Shown here: piece after piece, positions 58,362 through 62,017 of the stretch
Layout: every line of letters starts with the position of its first letter
Position numbering within the stretch: position 1 is the first letter of the stretch
Origin: Protaetiibacter intestinalis
Lineage (GTDB): Bacteria > Actinomycetota > Actinomycetes > Actinomycetales > Microbacteriaceae
Length of the DNA: 64,000 nucleotides
NCBI RefSeq assembly: GCF_003627075.1
Contig: NZ_CP032630.1
Location: 1,488,001-1,552,000 of the forward strand
Reading direction: 5' to 3'
Translations under genes and position numbers: made by a program
The notes under the pieces: generated by a model
Database searches by the model: none
Told to the model about the DNA's origin: nothing
Seen by the model: only the letters and a program-made list of their open reading frames with translations

Positions 58362-59279
58362 ATGACCGCTTTCCACGTCTCCGCAGAGGTCGCCGACGCG
58401 CTCGCCGACGGCCGCCCCGTCGTCGCGCTCGAGTCGACCATCATCAGCCACGGCCTCCCGCGGCCCCGCAACCACGAGGCGGCGATCGAGTTCGAGGAGA
58501 TCCTGCGCGAGAAGGGCGTGACCCCCGCGACGATCGCGGTGCTCGACGGCGTGCCGCAGATCGGCCTGGATGCGGAGGGCGTCCGCCGCATCGCGGAGGA
58601 GGAGCTCGCGAAGGCCTCGGTGCGCGACCTGCCGATCCTCGCCGCGCTCGGGCGTTCGGGTGCCACCACGGTCGCCGCGACCGCGTACCTCGCCGCGCTC
58701 GCGGGGGTGCGGGTGTTCGCGACCGGCGGGCTCGGCGGCGTGCACCGCGGCGCATCCTCGACCTTCGACGAGTCGGCCGACCTGCCGACGCTCGCCGAGA
58801 ACCCGATCACGGTCGTGTCGGCAGGCGTCAAGAGCGTGCTCGACATCCCCGCCACGCTCGAGCGGCTCGAGACGCTCAGCGTGCCGGTGATCGGCTACCG
58901 CACGACCGCGTTCCCCGCGTTCTGGCTGCGCGAATCCGGATACGAGCTCGACTGGAAGGTCGACTCGGCCGACGAGGTGGCGGCCGTCATGGCCGCCCGC
59001 GACGGGCTCGGCTCGACGAGCGGCATCGTGCTCGCGAACCCGGTGCCGCTCGAGCAGCAGTGGGATCCGGTCGAGCACGACCGCGTGCTCGCGACCGCCT
59101 TCGCGGCCGCGGATGCCGCCGAGGTGCACGGCAAGGCCGTCACGCCGTTCCTGCTCGGCTACATCGTCGAGGCCTCGGGCGGCAGGAGCCTCGAGGTGAA
59201 CCTCGATCTCGCCCGCAACAACGTGCGCGTCGCGGCGGAGGTCGCGACCGCCTGGGCGCGGATCGCACCCCGGCCGTGA
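58362..59279 (+). CDS. psuG: Pseudouridine-5'-phosphate glycosidase
   Basis: A 305-residue enzyme that splits pseudouridine 5'-phosphate into uracil and ribose 5-phosphate. Family motifs are ALESTIISHGLPRPRN (about residues 22-37), FATGGLGGVHRG and VVSAGVKSVLDIP with the catalytic Lys157. The stop overlaps the kinase start (GTGA). Uracil produced would be salvaged by uracil phosphoribosyltransferase, encoded 4 kb away. Confidence 0.93.
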   Translation: MTAFHVSAEVADALADGRPVVALESTIISHGLPRPRNHEAAIEFEEILREKGVTPATIAVLDGVPQIGLDAEGVRRIAEEELAKASVRDLPILAALGRSGATTVAATAYLAALAGVRVFATGGLGGVHRGASSTFDESADLPTLAENPITVVSAGVKSVLDIPATLERLETLSVPVIGYRTTAFPAFWLRESGYELDWKVDSADEVAAVMAARDGLGSTSGIVLANPVPLEQQWDPVEHDRVLATAFAAADAAEVHGKAVTPFLLGYIVEASGGRSLEVNLDLARNNVRVAAEVATAWARIAPRP

Positions 59280-60163
59280 CCGGGTCGCGGATCGTCATCG
59301 TCGGCGACCTCATCAACGACATCGTCGCCGTCACCCGCGAACCGCTGCGCCCCGACACCGACACGACCGCCACCATCCGCCCGAGCTCGGGCGGCTCGGC
59401 CGCCAACACGGCGGTGTGGCTCGCCCGGGCCGGTGCCGCCGTCGACTTCGTCGCCGCGGTCGGCGCCCACGACGCCCACCTGCACGAGGAGGAGCTCGCC
59501 GAGGCGGGCGTCACCCCGCACCTGCAGGTCGAGGTGGCCGCCCCGACCGGCACGATCATCATCATCGTGCAGGGCTCCGAGCGCACCATGCTCACCGAGC
59601 GCGGCGCGAACTCGCTGCTCACCTCGGCCGCGGTGACGGATGCGCTGCTCGCCGACGCGGCGCTGCTGCACGTGAGCGGCTACAGCATCGTCGACGGGTT
59701 CCGGGTGGCGGGCACCCGGGCGCTGCTCGACCGCGCGGCGGCGGCGGGCGTGCCCGTGTCGGTGAACCCCGGCTCGATCGGCTTCATCGCCGACTTCGGG
59801 GTGGAGGCGTTCCTCGAGGCGATCGCGGGGGCGTCTCTGCTGTTCCTGAGCGGCGACGAGGCGCGGCTGCTGACGGGACTCGACGGCGCGGAGCGCCAGG
59901 CGCGCGCCCTCGCGCGCGACTTCCCGATCGTGGCCCTCACCCGCGGTGCCGAGGGCGTCCTCCTGGTGGTCGACGGCGGCGAGCCCGTCGCGATCCCCGC
60001 ACGAAGCGTGCGGGCGATCGACCCGACCGGTGCGGGCGACGCCTTCATCGGCGGCTTCCTCGCCTCCTGGACGCAGGCCCCGGATGCCGTGGCCGCCGCC
60101 GAGGCGGGCGTCTTCACCGCCGCTCGCGCCGTGATGGCGATCGGCGGCCGCCCCCCGATCTGA
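59276..60163 (+). CDS. psuK: PfkB-family kinase, probable pseudouridine kinase
   Basis: A 295-residue ribokinase-like kinase. The N-terminal GGSAANTAVWLARAG and the C-terminal PfkB signature DPTGAGDAFIGGF (catalytic Asp) are intact. Coupling to psuG makes phosphorylation of pseudouridine the likely reaction. No nucleoside transporter is adjacent. It starts with GTG. Confidence 0.87.
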   Translation: MTGSRIVIVGDLINDIVAVTREPLRPDTDTTATIRPSSGGSAANTAVWLARAGAAVDFVAAVGAHDAHLHEEELAEAGVTPHLQVEVAAPTGTIIIIVQGSERTMLTERGANSLLTSAAVTDALLADAALLHVSGYSIVDGFRVAGTRALLDRAAAAGVPVSVNPGSIGFIADFGVEAFLEAIAGASLLFLSGDEARLLTGLDGAERQARALARDFPIVALTRGAEGVLLVVDGGEPVAIPARSVRAIDPTGAGDAFIGGFLASWTQAPDAVAAAEAGVFTAARAVMAIGGRPPI

Positions 60164-60249: not shown

Positions 60250-60690
60250 TCAGCCGGGGATCGCGCCGGCGCGCAGCTTGTCGGTGAGCTCGGCGAGCTG
60301 GCGCTGCTCCGCGCGGCTCAGCACCGACATCCGGGCGATGATCGAGCGGCCGTGCTGCGCCCCGATCCGCCGGAACACCTCGACCCCGCGGTCGGTGAGC
60401 GTGACGATCGTGCCGCGCGCATCCGCCGGGTCGGGGCTCTTCTCGACGAGGTGGCGCGCGACGAGCCGGTCGAGCAGCCTGCTCACGCTCGGCTGGGTGA
60501 GCAGCAGGTGCTTGTTGAGGTCGCGGATGCGCAGCGCCTGCCCCGGCTGCCGGTACAGGTTGAAGAGCACGTCGTACTCGGTGAACGAGATCTCGTCGTC
60601 GGGGAACTCGGCCAGCAGCTGGCGGAGCACCGCGACCTGGGCGCGGTACAGCGACTCCCAGGCGTCGACGGCATCCGCGCGATCGGTCAC
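60250..60690 (-). CDS. MarR-family transcriptional regulator
   Basis: A 146-residue regulator with the MarR winged helix (LRIRDLNKHLLLTQPSVSRLLDRLVARHLVEKSP, followed by the Asp-Arg wing DPADARGTIVTLT). It starts with GTG. It lies 26 bp after the EamA-type transporter gene on the same strand, so it may be cotranscribed and also under the riboswitch, or have its own promoter. Confidence 0.87.
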   Translation of the reverse strand: MTDRADAVDAWESLYRAQVAVLRQLLAEFPDDEISFTEYDVLFNLYRQPGQALRIRDLNKHLLLTQPSVSRLLDRLVARHLVEKSPDPADARGTIVTLTDRGVEVFRRIGAQHGRSIIARMSVLSRAEQRQLAELTDKLRAGAIPG

Positions 60691-60716: not shown

Positions 60717-61586
60717 TCAGAGCGCGATGAGCAGCACGCCCGTGACGACGACGCCGGCGGAGGCGACGCGCCACATCGCGTTGCCCTCGCGCAGCACGAG
60801 CGCCCCGAACAGGCTCACGAGCACGACGCTCACCTCGCGCATCGGCGCCACGAGCGAGACCGGCGCGATGGTCACGGCCGTCAGCACGAGGATGTACGAC
60901 AGCGGCGAGAGGATGCCGAAGGCGAGCATCGTGCGCCAGCGCTCGCGCAGCAGCCGCACCGCCTCGCGCGTGCGGCTGCGCAGCGCGAGCGTGTACAGGG
61001 GGATCTCGAGGAAGGTGCAGCCGACCATGAAGGCGACCGGGGGGATCTGCCAGCTGCGGATCGCGTGCGCGTCCCACAGCGTGTAGGCGGCGATGGAGAC
61101 GCCCGTGAGGGCGCCCGCGACGAGGGCGGGGTCGATCCGGCGACGGGAGCCCGGCAGGGCGGGCGGACGGTCGACGATGCCGAGCGCCACGACCCCCACG
61201 ACGATCGCGAGCACCCCCGCGAGCGCGAAGGGGGCGGGCCGCTCGCCGAGCACCGCGATCGCGACGATGACGGTGAGCAGGGGGCCGGTGCCGCGCGCCG
61301 TCGCGTAGACGGTCGAGAGGTTGCCGAGGGCGTAGCCGCGCTGCAGCACGAGCATGTAGGCGACGTGCAGCACGCCCGAGACTCCGATGCCGAGCAGGAA
61401 GCCGCCGAGCTGCTCGGTGGGGATGCCGCCGGTGAGCGGGATGAGCGGGGCCCACAGCACGGTCGCCGAGACGGCGGCGCCCCAGAGGAACAGCATCCCG
61501 CCGCCGCTGGAGCGGTGCGCGAGCACGTTCCAGGCGGCGTGCGAGACGGCGGCGCCGAGCACGAGGAGGACGGCTTCGACGGACAT
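60717..61586 (-). CDS. EamA/DMT-family transporter under guanidine riboswitch
   Basis: A 289-residue membrane protein with ten predicted helices in two EamA halves (first half about 1-135, second about 150-289). Motifs are SHAAWNVLAHRS, YATARGTGPLLTV and VSLVAPMREVSVVLVSL. It belongs to the drug/metabolite transporter superfamily, as do the four-helix SMR guanidine exporters (Gdx). The guanidine-I riboswitch just upstream suggests it exports guanidine or a related compound; the EamA fold in this role would be unusual. GAAGGG lies 8 bp before the ATG. Confidence 0.87.
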   Translation of the reverse strand: MSVEAVLLVLGAAVSHAAWNVLAHRSSGGGMLFLWGAAVSATVLWAPLIPLTGGIPTEQLGGFLLGIGVSGVLHVAYMLVLQRGYALGNLSTVYATARGTGPLLTVIVAIAVLGERPAPFALAGVLAIVVGVVALGIVDRPPALPGSRRRIDPALVAGALTGVSIAAYTLWDAHAIRSWQIPPVAFMVGCTFLEIPLYTLALRSRTREAVRLLRERWRTMLAFGILSPLSYILVLTAVTIAPVSLVAPMREVSVVLVSLFGALVLREGNAMWRVASAGVVVTGVLLIAL

Positions 61587-61612
61587 GCGGGACCCTTCGG
61601 CCCGCCGCGGGC

Positions 61613-61731
61613 GCGACGGACGGGTCCTCCGGGCTTTTGTCCTGTCAGATGACGGCGTCCACGAGGGTGGTCGCCGTGGCGCCGCTCGGACCAGTCGAGG
61701 CGAGCCTCCGGAACCCTAGGCGCTGTCGCGG
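61613..61731 (-). ncRNA. Guanidine-I (ykkC) riboswitch
   Basis: On the minus strand the leader contains, in order, CCUAGGGUUCCGG (about 61721-61709), ACUGGUCCGAG (about 61695-61685), the stem ACGGCG/CGCCGU (about 61678-61652) and GACAGGACAAAAGCCCGGAGGA (about 61646-61625; GACAGGACAAAAGCCCGG is the near-invariant 3' core). This order and these words match the guanidine-I class. Downstream, GGACCC (61627-61622) can pair with GGGUCC (61593-61588 region) which overlaps the ribosome-binding site GAAGGG, so guanidine binding would free translation of the EamA gene. Confidence 0.88.
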
Positions 61732-62017
61732 CCGAGCGTAGGGGCCGTCGGTGAACGGCCGGTTAACGTGATTGAGGGTCGGCCGCAGAGGCAAGCGGCC
61801 GACCCTCTCCCTTGCACCAAGAGTGTCCTGCAATCACATTCCGCTTGGTTCGCCACAGCAAACGAATCAAGCTCTATGAATGTATAACGAGAAGGTAACG
61901 CTGTCTAGTTATCAGACCGTTATTTTTCTGCGAGTTCGCCCAGCGCCCGATCGGAGGCGGTGCGACGCGCGCGAAGGCGCGGTCAGGCGACGCGAGTCGA
62001 CCTCTCGGTGCCGCGCC
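61732..62017. other. Intergenic region with hairpin and AT-rich patch
   Basis: No gene. A perfect 13-bp hairpin (GAGGGTCGGCCGC at 61774-61786, complement at 61795-61807) probably ends the winged-helix gene on the minus strand. An unusually AT-rich patch at about 61860-61935 contains GTTATACATTC on the minus strand, a candidate promoter. The promoter for the riboswitch RNA must lie here too, but no clear -35/-10 pair stands out. Confidence 0.55.

Follow-up and report, generated by a model that had tools for sequence, protein, structure and literature searches.

The leader in front of an EamA-type transporter gene of Protaetiibacter intestinalis is very probably a translational riboswitch of the orphan ykkC subtype 2d, assigned by the published description of that subtype, as given in the accessible parts of PMC7266159 and PMC5912903, and not by a letter-by-letter consensus. 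New here is that in Microbacteriaceae RNAs of this type co-occur with the TIGR03364 aminophosphonate oxidase family. The window, by which we mean the whole 64,000-nucleotide stretch of DNA analysed, carries this ykkC-type leader on the minus strand, directly 5′ of the 289-codon EamA gene (61586-60717). With its 5′ and 3′ flanks the aptamer occupies 61619..61734 (minus strand), as supported by a 50-bit match to RF00442, by covariation among 80 relatives and by our own model R2, which was built from five leaders, the window's included, so that its 125.4 bits at the window are no independent test.

The sequence-only reading had taken the leader for a guanidine-I riboswitch and had named a covariance-model search with that family as a check. 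This search, run on 501 bases, matched the full-length Guanidine-I model (RF00442) at 61730-61625(-) with 50.0 bits and an E-value of 4.9e-8, which is below the gathering score of 63 bits, and in a gathering-score Rfam search of the whole window nothing reached the cut-off. Rfam gave no match to a subtype 2d model. A mir-341 match (E 5.2) was rejected as an inverted repeat matched by chance. A long GC inverted repeat (GGGTCGGCCGC/GCGGCCGACCC), possibly a terminator, lies at 61763-61818, between the leader and the regulator gene upstream of it. When the whole genome was searched, the leader was its sole RF00442 match. RF00442 matched 7 of 99 genomes when relatives were included: five of these matches were one Microbacteriaceae type, one was a canonical leader (L001), and one (L007 in G087, 37.9 bits) was judged to be due to chance and dropped because the aligned stretch lacked ykkC words, a weak rejection given that the plus strand was taken and the match was on the minus strand. 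Five leaders of the window's type have in common GAYAGCGCCUAGGGUUCCG..CUGGUYCGAGCGG..CAUCUSA..GGAYARAAGCCYGGAGGACC. On the minus strand the conserved words follow one another as the sequence-only reading had listed them, and its claim of a riboswitch ahead of an EamA gene was borne out, with a ykkC fold. The paired ACGGCG stem that it pointed to is also present, but as the P2 hairpin; the ACGG strand of P3 that binds guanidine is a different element and is absent here.

Relatives of the leader were collected with a contig pattern scan that gave at least 119 stretches; the pattern demanded C or T at position 46 and GCCYNGAG, so that conservation in these columns is partly built in. When the leaders were sorted by eye, at least 104 of the matches listed belonged to type A, the window's type, and at least five each to types B, C and D. 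Directly downstream of the 104 type A leaders among the matches listed were 86 EamA and 9 TauE genes, the remaining nine being unassigned, seven of them at a locus end. Class B leaders were found in Proteobacteria and had an apparent P0 helix (at least five loci), class C leaders in Brevibacillus and Paenibacillus lay 5′ of a gene that we take to be xpt-like (at least five loci), and class D leaders lay 5′ of another EamA subfamily (at least five loci). The P0-bearing leaders of Proteobacteria (TCGAC/GTCGA by eye; L057, L072, L099, L119 and L126) precede EamA genes of the same family as the window's, and one EamA family is thus served by two ykkC architectures. P0-bearing subtype-2 leaders in front of a different EamA subfamily were seen in Actinomadura and actinobacterial metagenome-assembled genomes (L052, L063, L102, L105 and L165; L044 and L047 are similar), with CACCUCA in P3 in four of these five loci and CACCCGA in L102. 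The EamA and TauE genes behind the window's type agree with the accessible part of PMC7266159, which places RNAs of subtype 2d in front of genes for EamA (originally phn_DUF6) and TauE transporters and lists them as orphans as of 2020. Also in keeping with subtype 2d are the ykkC fold, the changes in the guanidine pocket and the guanidine-I-like sequence, since the 2d consensus is described as nearest to guanidine-I (PMC5912903, accessible text).

Model R2 found the RNA in 39 of 398 Microbacteriaceae genomes, 38 of them at 90-130 bits and one at 59.5; panels of more than 40 genomes were searched with stricter filters, so copies may have been missed in some genomes scored as lacking the RNA. 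The 59.5-bit leader (L197, 9795-9917, genome G142) deviates strongly, with CAUUCGC in P3, and lies 5′ of EamA and a full phn cluster; it may be decaying or may represent a further specificity. In the phylum panel R2 matched 16 of 396 genomes. Five of these were of the window's type, four in Microbacteriaceae, the window's included, and one elsewhere in the class, in a different family. The remaining eleven scored 29-49 bits, and among the eight leaders read there were six canonical and two class-D-like ones. An alignment of 80 leaders (A3) was made from 76 of the 104 pattern-found type A loci among the matches listed, together with the window, L008, L039 and L197. In this alignment, which was fitted to the R2 model, 94.4% of the pair cells were paired. 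Cells with changes on both sides numbered 246, compared to 83.6 in shuffled and 28-58 in slid controls, and were located in P1, P1b and P2. Counted by pair, both-side changes were less striking: they occurred in 13 pairs, a number reached in 39 of 500 shuffles, and P3 showed no two-sided change among the 80 aligned leaders. The window sequence alone showed no unusual stability (z -0.35).

The pocket itself departs from guanidine-I. After CCGAG, at 61684 (minus strand), where guanidine-I has A46 and the PRPP aptamer C49, the window leader has a C, as do 80 of 80 aligned relatives, a count that is partly built in because 76 of them had been selected with a scan pattern that allowed just C or T there. 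Pattern-free searches gave C in 31 of 31 leaders read, from 33 loci of the window's type, five genomes of the search set being the source of the R2 training leaders. The canonical guanidine-I leaders that could be verified in the order and phylum panels (L001, L041, L042, L045, L046, L048 and L049) had an A at this position, within CCGAGAG, in six of seven cases and a G in L048; L043, L050 and L051 had no anchor words and were not counted as verified. According to the accessible part of PMC6031431, A46 is a marker of guanidine aptamers and a pyrimidine (C49) stands there in subtypes 2a and 2b, so that the C of the window is the form that marks subtype 2. The same text places most differences among ykkC aptamers around the S-turn. 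In P3, the seven verified canonical leaders all read ACGG...GCCCGGGAG compared to CAUCUGACAGG...GCCCGGAG in the window, where CAUCUGA replaces the guanidine ACGG strand and the GGG of the S-turn is one G short, and the 80 aligned relatives are alike. By alignment column counts and comparison with the canonical loci, the pocket strands CAUCUGACAGGACAAAAGCCCGGAG (61627..61651, minus strand) replace CACGG..GGGACAAAAGCCCGGGAG of guanidine-I. The inner P3 pair (alignment columns 162 and 174, window 61643 and 61631) is a coupled mismatch, with C.U in 30, A.C in 25 and G.U in 22 of the 80 leaders, which suggests a conserved non-standard pair.

With a score below the cut-off, C in place of A46, CAUCUGA in place of ACGG and a missing S-turn G, the leader is, judged from its sequence, very unlikely to be a guanidine-I aptamer. 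The wider proposal of the sequence-only reading, a guanidine-I riboswitch that controls a new type of guanidine exporter, can draw on RF00442 as the only notable Rfam match and on a fold and most conserved words in common, namely P1, P1a/b, P2, the docking words CUAGGGUUCCG and CUGGUCCGAG, and AAAAGCC. Weighed against the altered pocket in the window and its aligned relatives, however, this proposal seems extremely improbable. Its gene context differs as well, in that the canonical leader L001, of the same order, is followed by a gene of the arginase family, the 2d context is published for EamA and TauE genes, and in Microbacteriaceae it is phosphonate-metabolism genes that accompany the RNA. 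The new exporter type thus found no support. A sub-threshold Rfam match can conceal a different ligand.

Upstream of the aptamer, a -10 promoter box, TACGCT, was placed at 61735..61740 (minus strand). L197 had no CTAGGG anchor; the other 79 of the 80 leaders all carried TANNNT 19-26 bases upstream of it, 72 of them at a distance of 20 or 21, and 200 shuffles averaged 3.7 such leaders and never exceeded 10. In 72 of the 79 leaders the end of the box lay 6 or 7 nt upstream of the conserved GAYA, and in the other seven nearby. The transcript is therefore predicted to start near 61727, at GAYA, and a transcript starting there would be too short at its 5′ end to form the P0 helix of subtypes 2a-2c. 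P0 would accordingly be lacking in the window's type, as far as a start site placed from the -10 box goes; leaders of classes B, C and D showed P0-like complements on inspection by eye.

When the numbering of the PRPP aptamer, in which G48, C49 and C78 touch the 5-phosphate or its metal (PMC6031431, accessible text), was placed on the window RNA, we inferred that positions 49 and 78 are C and position 77 is U, and that the RNA has no G in position 96. By this mapping of our own, the window RNA resembles the PRPP and ppGpp riboswitches (ykkC 2b and 2a) in the C at position 49 and in C78. A ppGpp, PRPP or NDP riboswitch of subtype 2a-2c would fit the pyrimidine at the C49 position and, if the mapping holds, the lack of a G at the G96 position, as in ppGpp aptamers. 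It would not fit a transcript that apparently starts at the aptamer and has no P0, the U at the C77 position in 74 of 80 aligned leaders, or the different gene contexts, and we consider it very improbable.

Downstream of the aptamer, a helix that would hide the Shine-Dalgarno sequence was found. Its left arm, GACCC (61622..61626, minus strand), adjoins the 3′ end of the aptamer, its right arm is GGGTC (61591..61595, minus strand), and the Shine-Dalgarno sequence AAGGG (61593..61597, minus strand), with a 6-nt spacer to the ATG, lies partly within the right arm. Among 77 of the 80 leaders (L197, L151 and L120 were left out), 55 had an exact complement of their own left arm. Forty leaders had a left arm other than GACCC, and of these 25 had a right arm exactly complementary to it, compared with just five that had the consensus complement GGGTC. 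A looser count that allowed G-U pairs at any position separated own from foreign arms weakly (5.25 vs 4.92 of 6 pairs). The compensatory changes (25/40 vs 5/40) support the translational platform put forward in the sequence-only reading, a GGACCC/GGGUCC pairing over the ribosome-binding site. The left arm directly adjoins the conserved 3′ end of the aptamer, so a ligand-bound aptamer and a hidden ribosome-binding site are probably mutually exclusive states. Binding would hold the aptamer 3′ end (GGAG|GACCC), the hiding helix could then not form, and the transporter would be translated, so the arrangement would make an ON switch. Guanidine, ppGpp and PRPP aptamers are described as ON switches in the accessible part of PMC6031431. 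Two EamA leaders in which the RNA was not detected (L222 and L223, genomes G109 and G226) retain GGGTTCCG and CCTCACC near the start codon, and L223 scored 15.4 bits (E 0.18); these words are possibly a remnant of the aptamer.

The transporter gene (60717..61586, minus strand) encodes an EamA (phn_DUF6-like) protein of 289 amino acids. PF00892 matched in two EamA stretches with 56 bits, above its gathering score of 28.2, and the best NCBIfam match was TIGR03340 (phn_DUF6), for which the protein stayed far below the cut-off (112.9 vs 288.15 bits). A simple script gave ten hydropathy segments. The predicted structure (model confidence 88.5) has a drug/metabolite-transporter fold, with LicB (TM 0.80), nucleotide-sugar carriers, a triose-phosphate/phosphate translocator and 5i20, presumably YddG, as structural matches, and the next gene is thus the ten-helix EamA protein that the sequence-only reading described. 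A sequence search of the PDB gave no match. Residues H16, H74, R98, D172, R250, E251 and R273 were invariant in 61 aligned EamA sequences, four of class B included, and we would guess that such arginines and acids suit a zwitterion such as 2-aminoethylphosphonate (AEP). Our guess is also that EamA exports the ligand as a relief valve; import is possible, and the title of LicB, a choline importer, allows either direction. A MarR-type regulator gene lies 26 bp 3′ of EamA on the same strand (60250-60690); it was rejected as part of the EamA unit, being found beside none of the 61 other type A EamA loci among the matches listed. A PF04227 gene, which we take to be of the pseudouridine-5′-phosphate glycosidase type, and an overlapping frame that looked sugar-kinase-like by eye are convergent with EamA (58362-60163); the latter frame, whose start was guessed, gave no family match.

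A phosphonate link for the EamA of Microbacteriaceae was firmly supported by neighbouring genes and by co-occurrence. In high-GC loci with genes called by a rough script, clustering of the neighbours among the matches listed gave a PhnD protein in 33 loci with 13 genus labels, beside EamA itself and mirror-frame artefacts. The neighbour set scored above the NCBIfam cut-offs for TIGR01098 (PhnD), TIGR02315 (PhnC), TIGR03364, TIGR03351 and TIGR03366, and below the cut-off for PhnE, in a gene cut by the locus end, and for a PhnF-like regulator. Of the EamA loci among the matches listed, 61 extended 3 kb or more downstream, and 29 of these also contained phn genes. TIGR03364 was present in 112 of the 398 Microbacteriaceae genomes, namely in all 39 genomes with the RNA and in 73 of the 359 without it (Fisher, 1e-24, which overstates independence since the genomes share ancestry). 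At genus level, all 15 RNA-bearing genera fell within the 37 of 85 genera with TIGR03364 (5e-7), and among the nine genomes of the window's genus the two with the RNA were the two with TIGR03364. The gene lay within 10 kb of the RNA in 27 of the 39 genomes and far off or on another contig in 12, the window's genome included; the pair thus persists without linkage. In the window's own genome a PhnD-PhnC-PhnE-FAD-HAD-ADH run was located at 1,363-1,370 kb, 183 kb from the leader, with PhnD (TIGR01098), PhnC, TIGR03364 and TIGR03366 above and TIGR03351 just below the cut-off.

The association extended to the transporter gene. EamA-like genes were searched for at E 1e-55 with at most six candidates scored per genome, and all 38 genomes listed, which leave out 8 of the 39 RNA-bearing ones, also had TIGR03364. 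Seven of the 38 had no detected RNA, and in two of those the gene had only 43-45% identity. Three of the RNA-less EamA copies lay within a phn cluster (G053), beside TIGR03366 (G118) and alone (G391). One member of TIGR03364 is PbfD1, an enzyme that converts N-methyl-AEP and AEP oxidatively into phosphonoacetaldehyde, in a study whose accessible text leaves the Microbacteriaceae enzymes outside its scope (PMC10590968), and the text of the TIGR03364 model suggests an aminophosphonate slightly unlike AEP as substrate.

These genes also bear on the proposal of the class authors, who, in the accessible text of PMC5912903, call the 2d transporter phosphonate-associated yet propose a guanidine-like toxic compound as the ligand. 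That 2d is nearest to guanidine-I and that the transporter shares a superfamily with guanidine transporters would suit an aptamer for a small toxic guanidine-like cation. However, the A46 position and, in our mapping, the G72 position are C, as in phosphate-binding ykkC aptamers, the co-occurring genes handle phosphonates, and R98 and R250 of the transporter are invariant (61/61 aligned), though so are D172 and E251. We therefore regard such a cation as unlikely.

Outside Microbacteriaceae the link differed between types of carrier. Among genomes reached through their loci, whose completeness is not stated, TIGR03364 was present in 12 of 14 EamA-type carriers, which makes a phosphonate link likely for the EamA of other Actinobacteria. 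It was present in 3 of 10 TauE-type carriers (3 of 12 with two unassigned TauE-like loci), in one of two loci that ended early, in none of five class B, five class D, two class-D-like (G733 and G466) and two class C genomes, and in one of seven verified canonical and none of three unverified guanidine-I carriers. In a further panel of 35 genomes, the phosphonatase TIGR01422 scored above cut-off in a single genome, of class B, and gave six weaker matches, each of them in a TauE-type genome; PhnJ was found in three genomes, in which class B, the TauE type and the EamA type were represented once each. The five class B EamA carriers included one with PhnX and one with PhnJ. No recurring neighbour was seen by eye in the seven TauE-type loci listed, and a purF-like gene lay near L085. 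The TauE-type and proteobacterial carriers thus showed no clear phosphonate link.

This leaves some room for an aptamer that senses another phosphate-, sulfonate- or phosphate-ester-like anion, the phn linkage being a habit of Microbacteriaceae. The pocket would retain G48, C49 and C78, the phosphate or metal contacts of the PRPP aptamer (PMC6031431, accessible text; inferred mapping), and most TauE-type carriers are without TIGR03364. The co-occurrence in Microbacteriaceae (39/39 and 38/38), kept when the genes are unlinked, and the 12 of 14 EamA-type carriers elsewhere speak against this possibility, which we rate as somewhat doubtful.

From the gene context we tentatively favour a small phosphonate as the ligand, most likely an aminophosphonate or the product phosphonoacetaldehyde, which EamA would move. 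It is conceivable, and we put it forward with similar caution, that ykkC-2d aptamers in general sense a C-P compound (AEP, N-methyl-AEP or phosphonoacetaldehyde) through the phosphate site of the PRPP and ppGpp aptamers without P0, and turn on an EamA or TauE transporter. To our knowledge, a riboswitch for a C-P compound would be the first of its kind. The literature searched, which covered few subscription papers and not the primary 2d work, gave no link between ykkC RNAs and a phosphonate ligand; apart from PMC5912903, the papers that mention both ykkC and phosphonate deal, where they treat ykkC, with guanidine or the YkkCD proteins. In a 2020 review (PMC7266159, accessible text) subtype 2d alone among the ykkC classes lacked a ligand, and the link to one enzyme set, comprising PhnCDE, the TIGR03364 oxidase, a phosphonatase-like hydrolase and the HpnZ dehydrogenase, gives a short list of candidate compounds. 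If the phosphonate reading is true, phosphonates would join the riboswitch ligands, a family of phosphonate transporters would be named, and the last orphan of the ykkC group would be settled.
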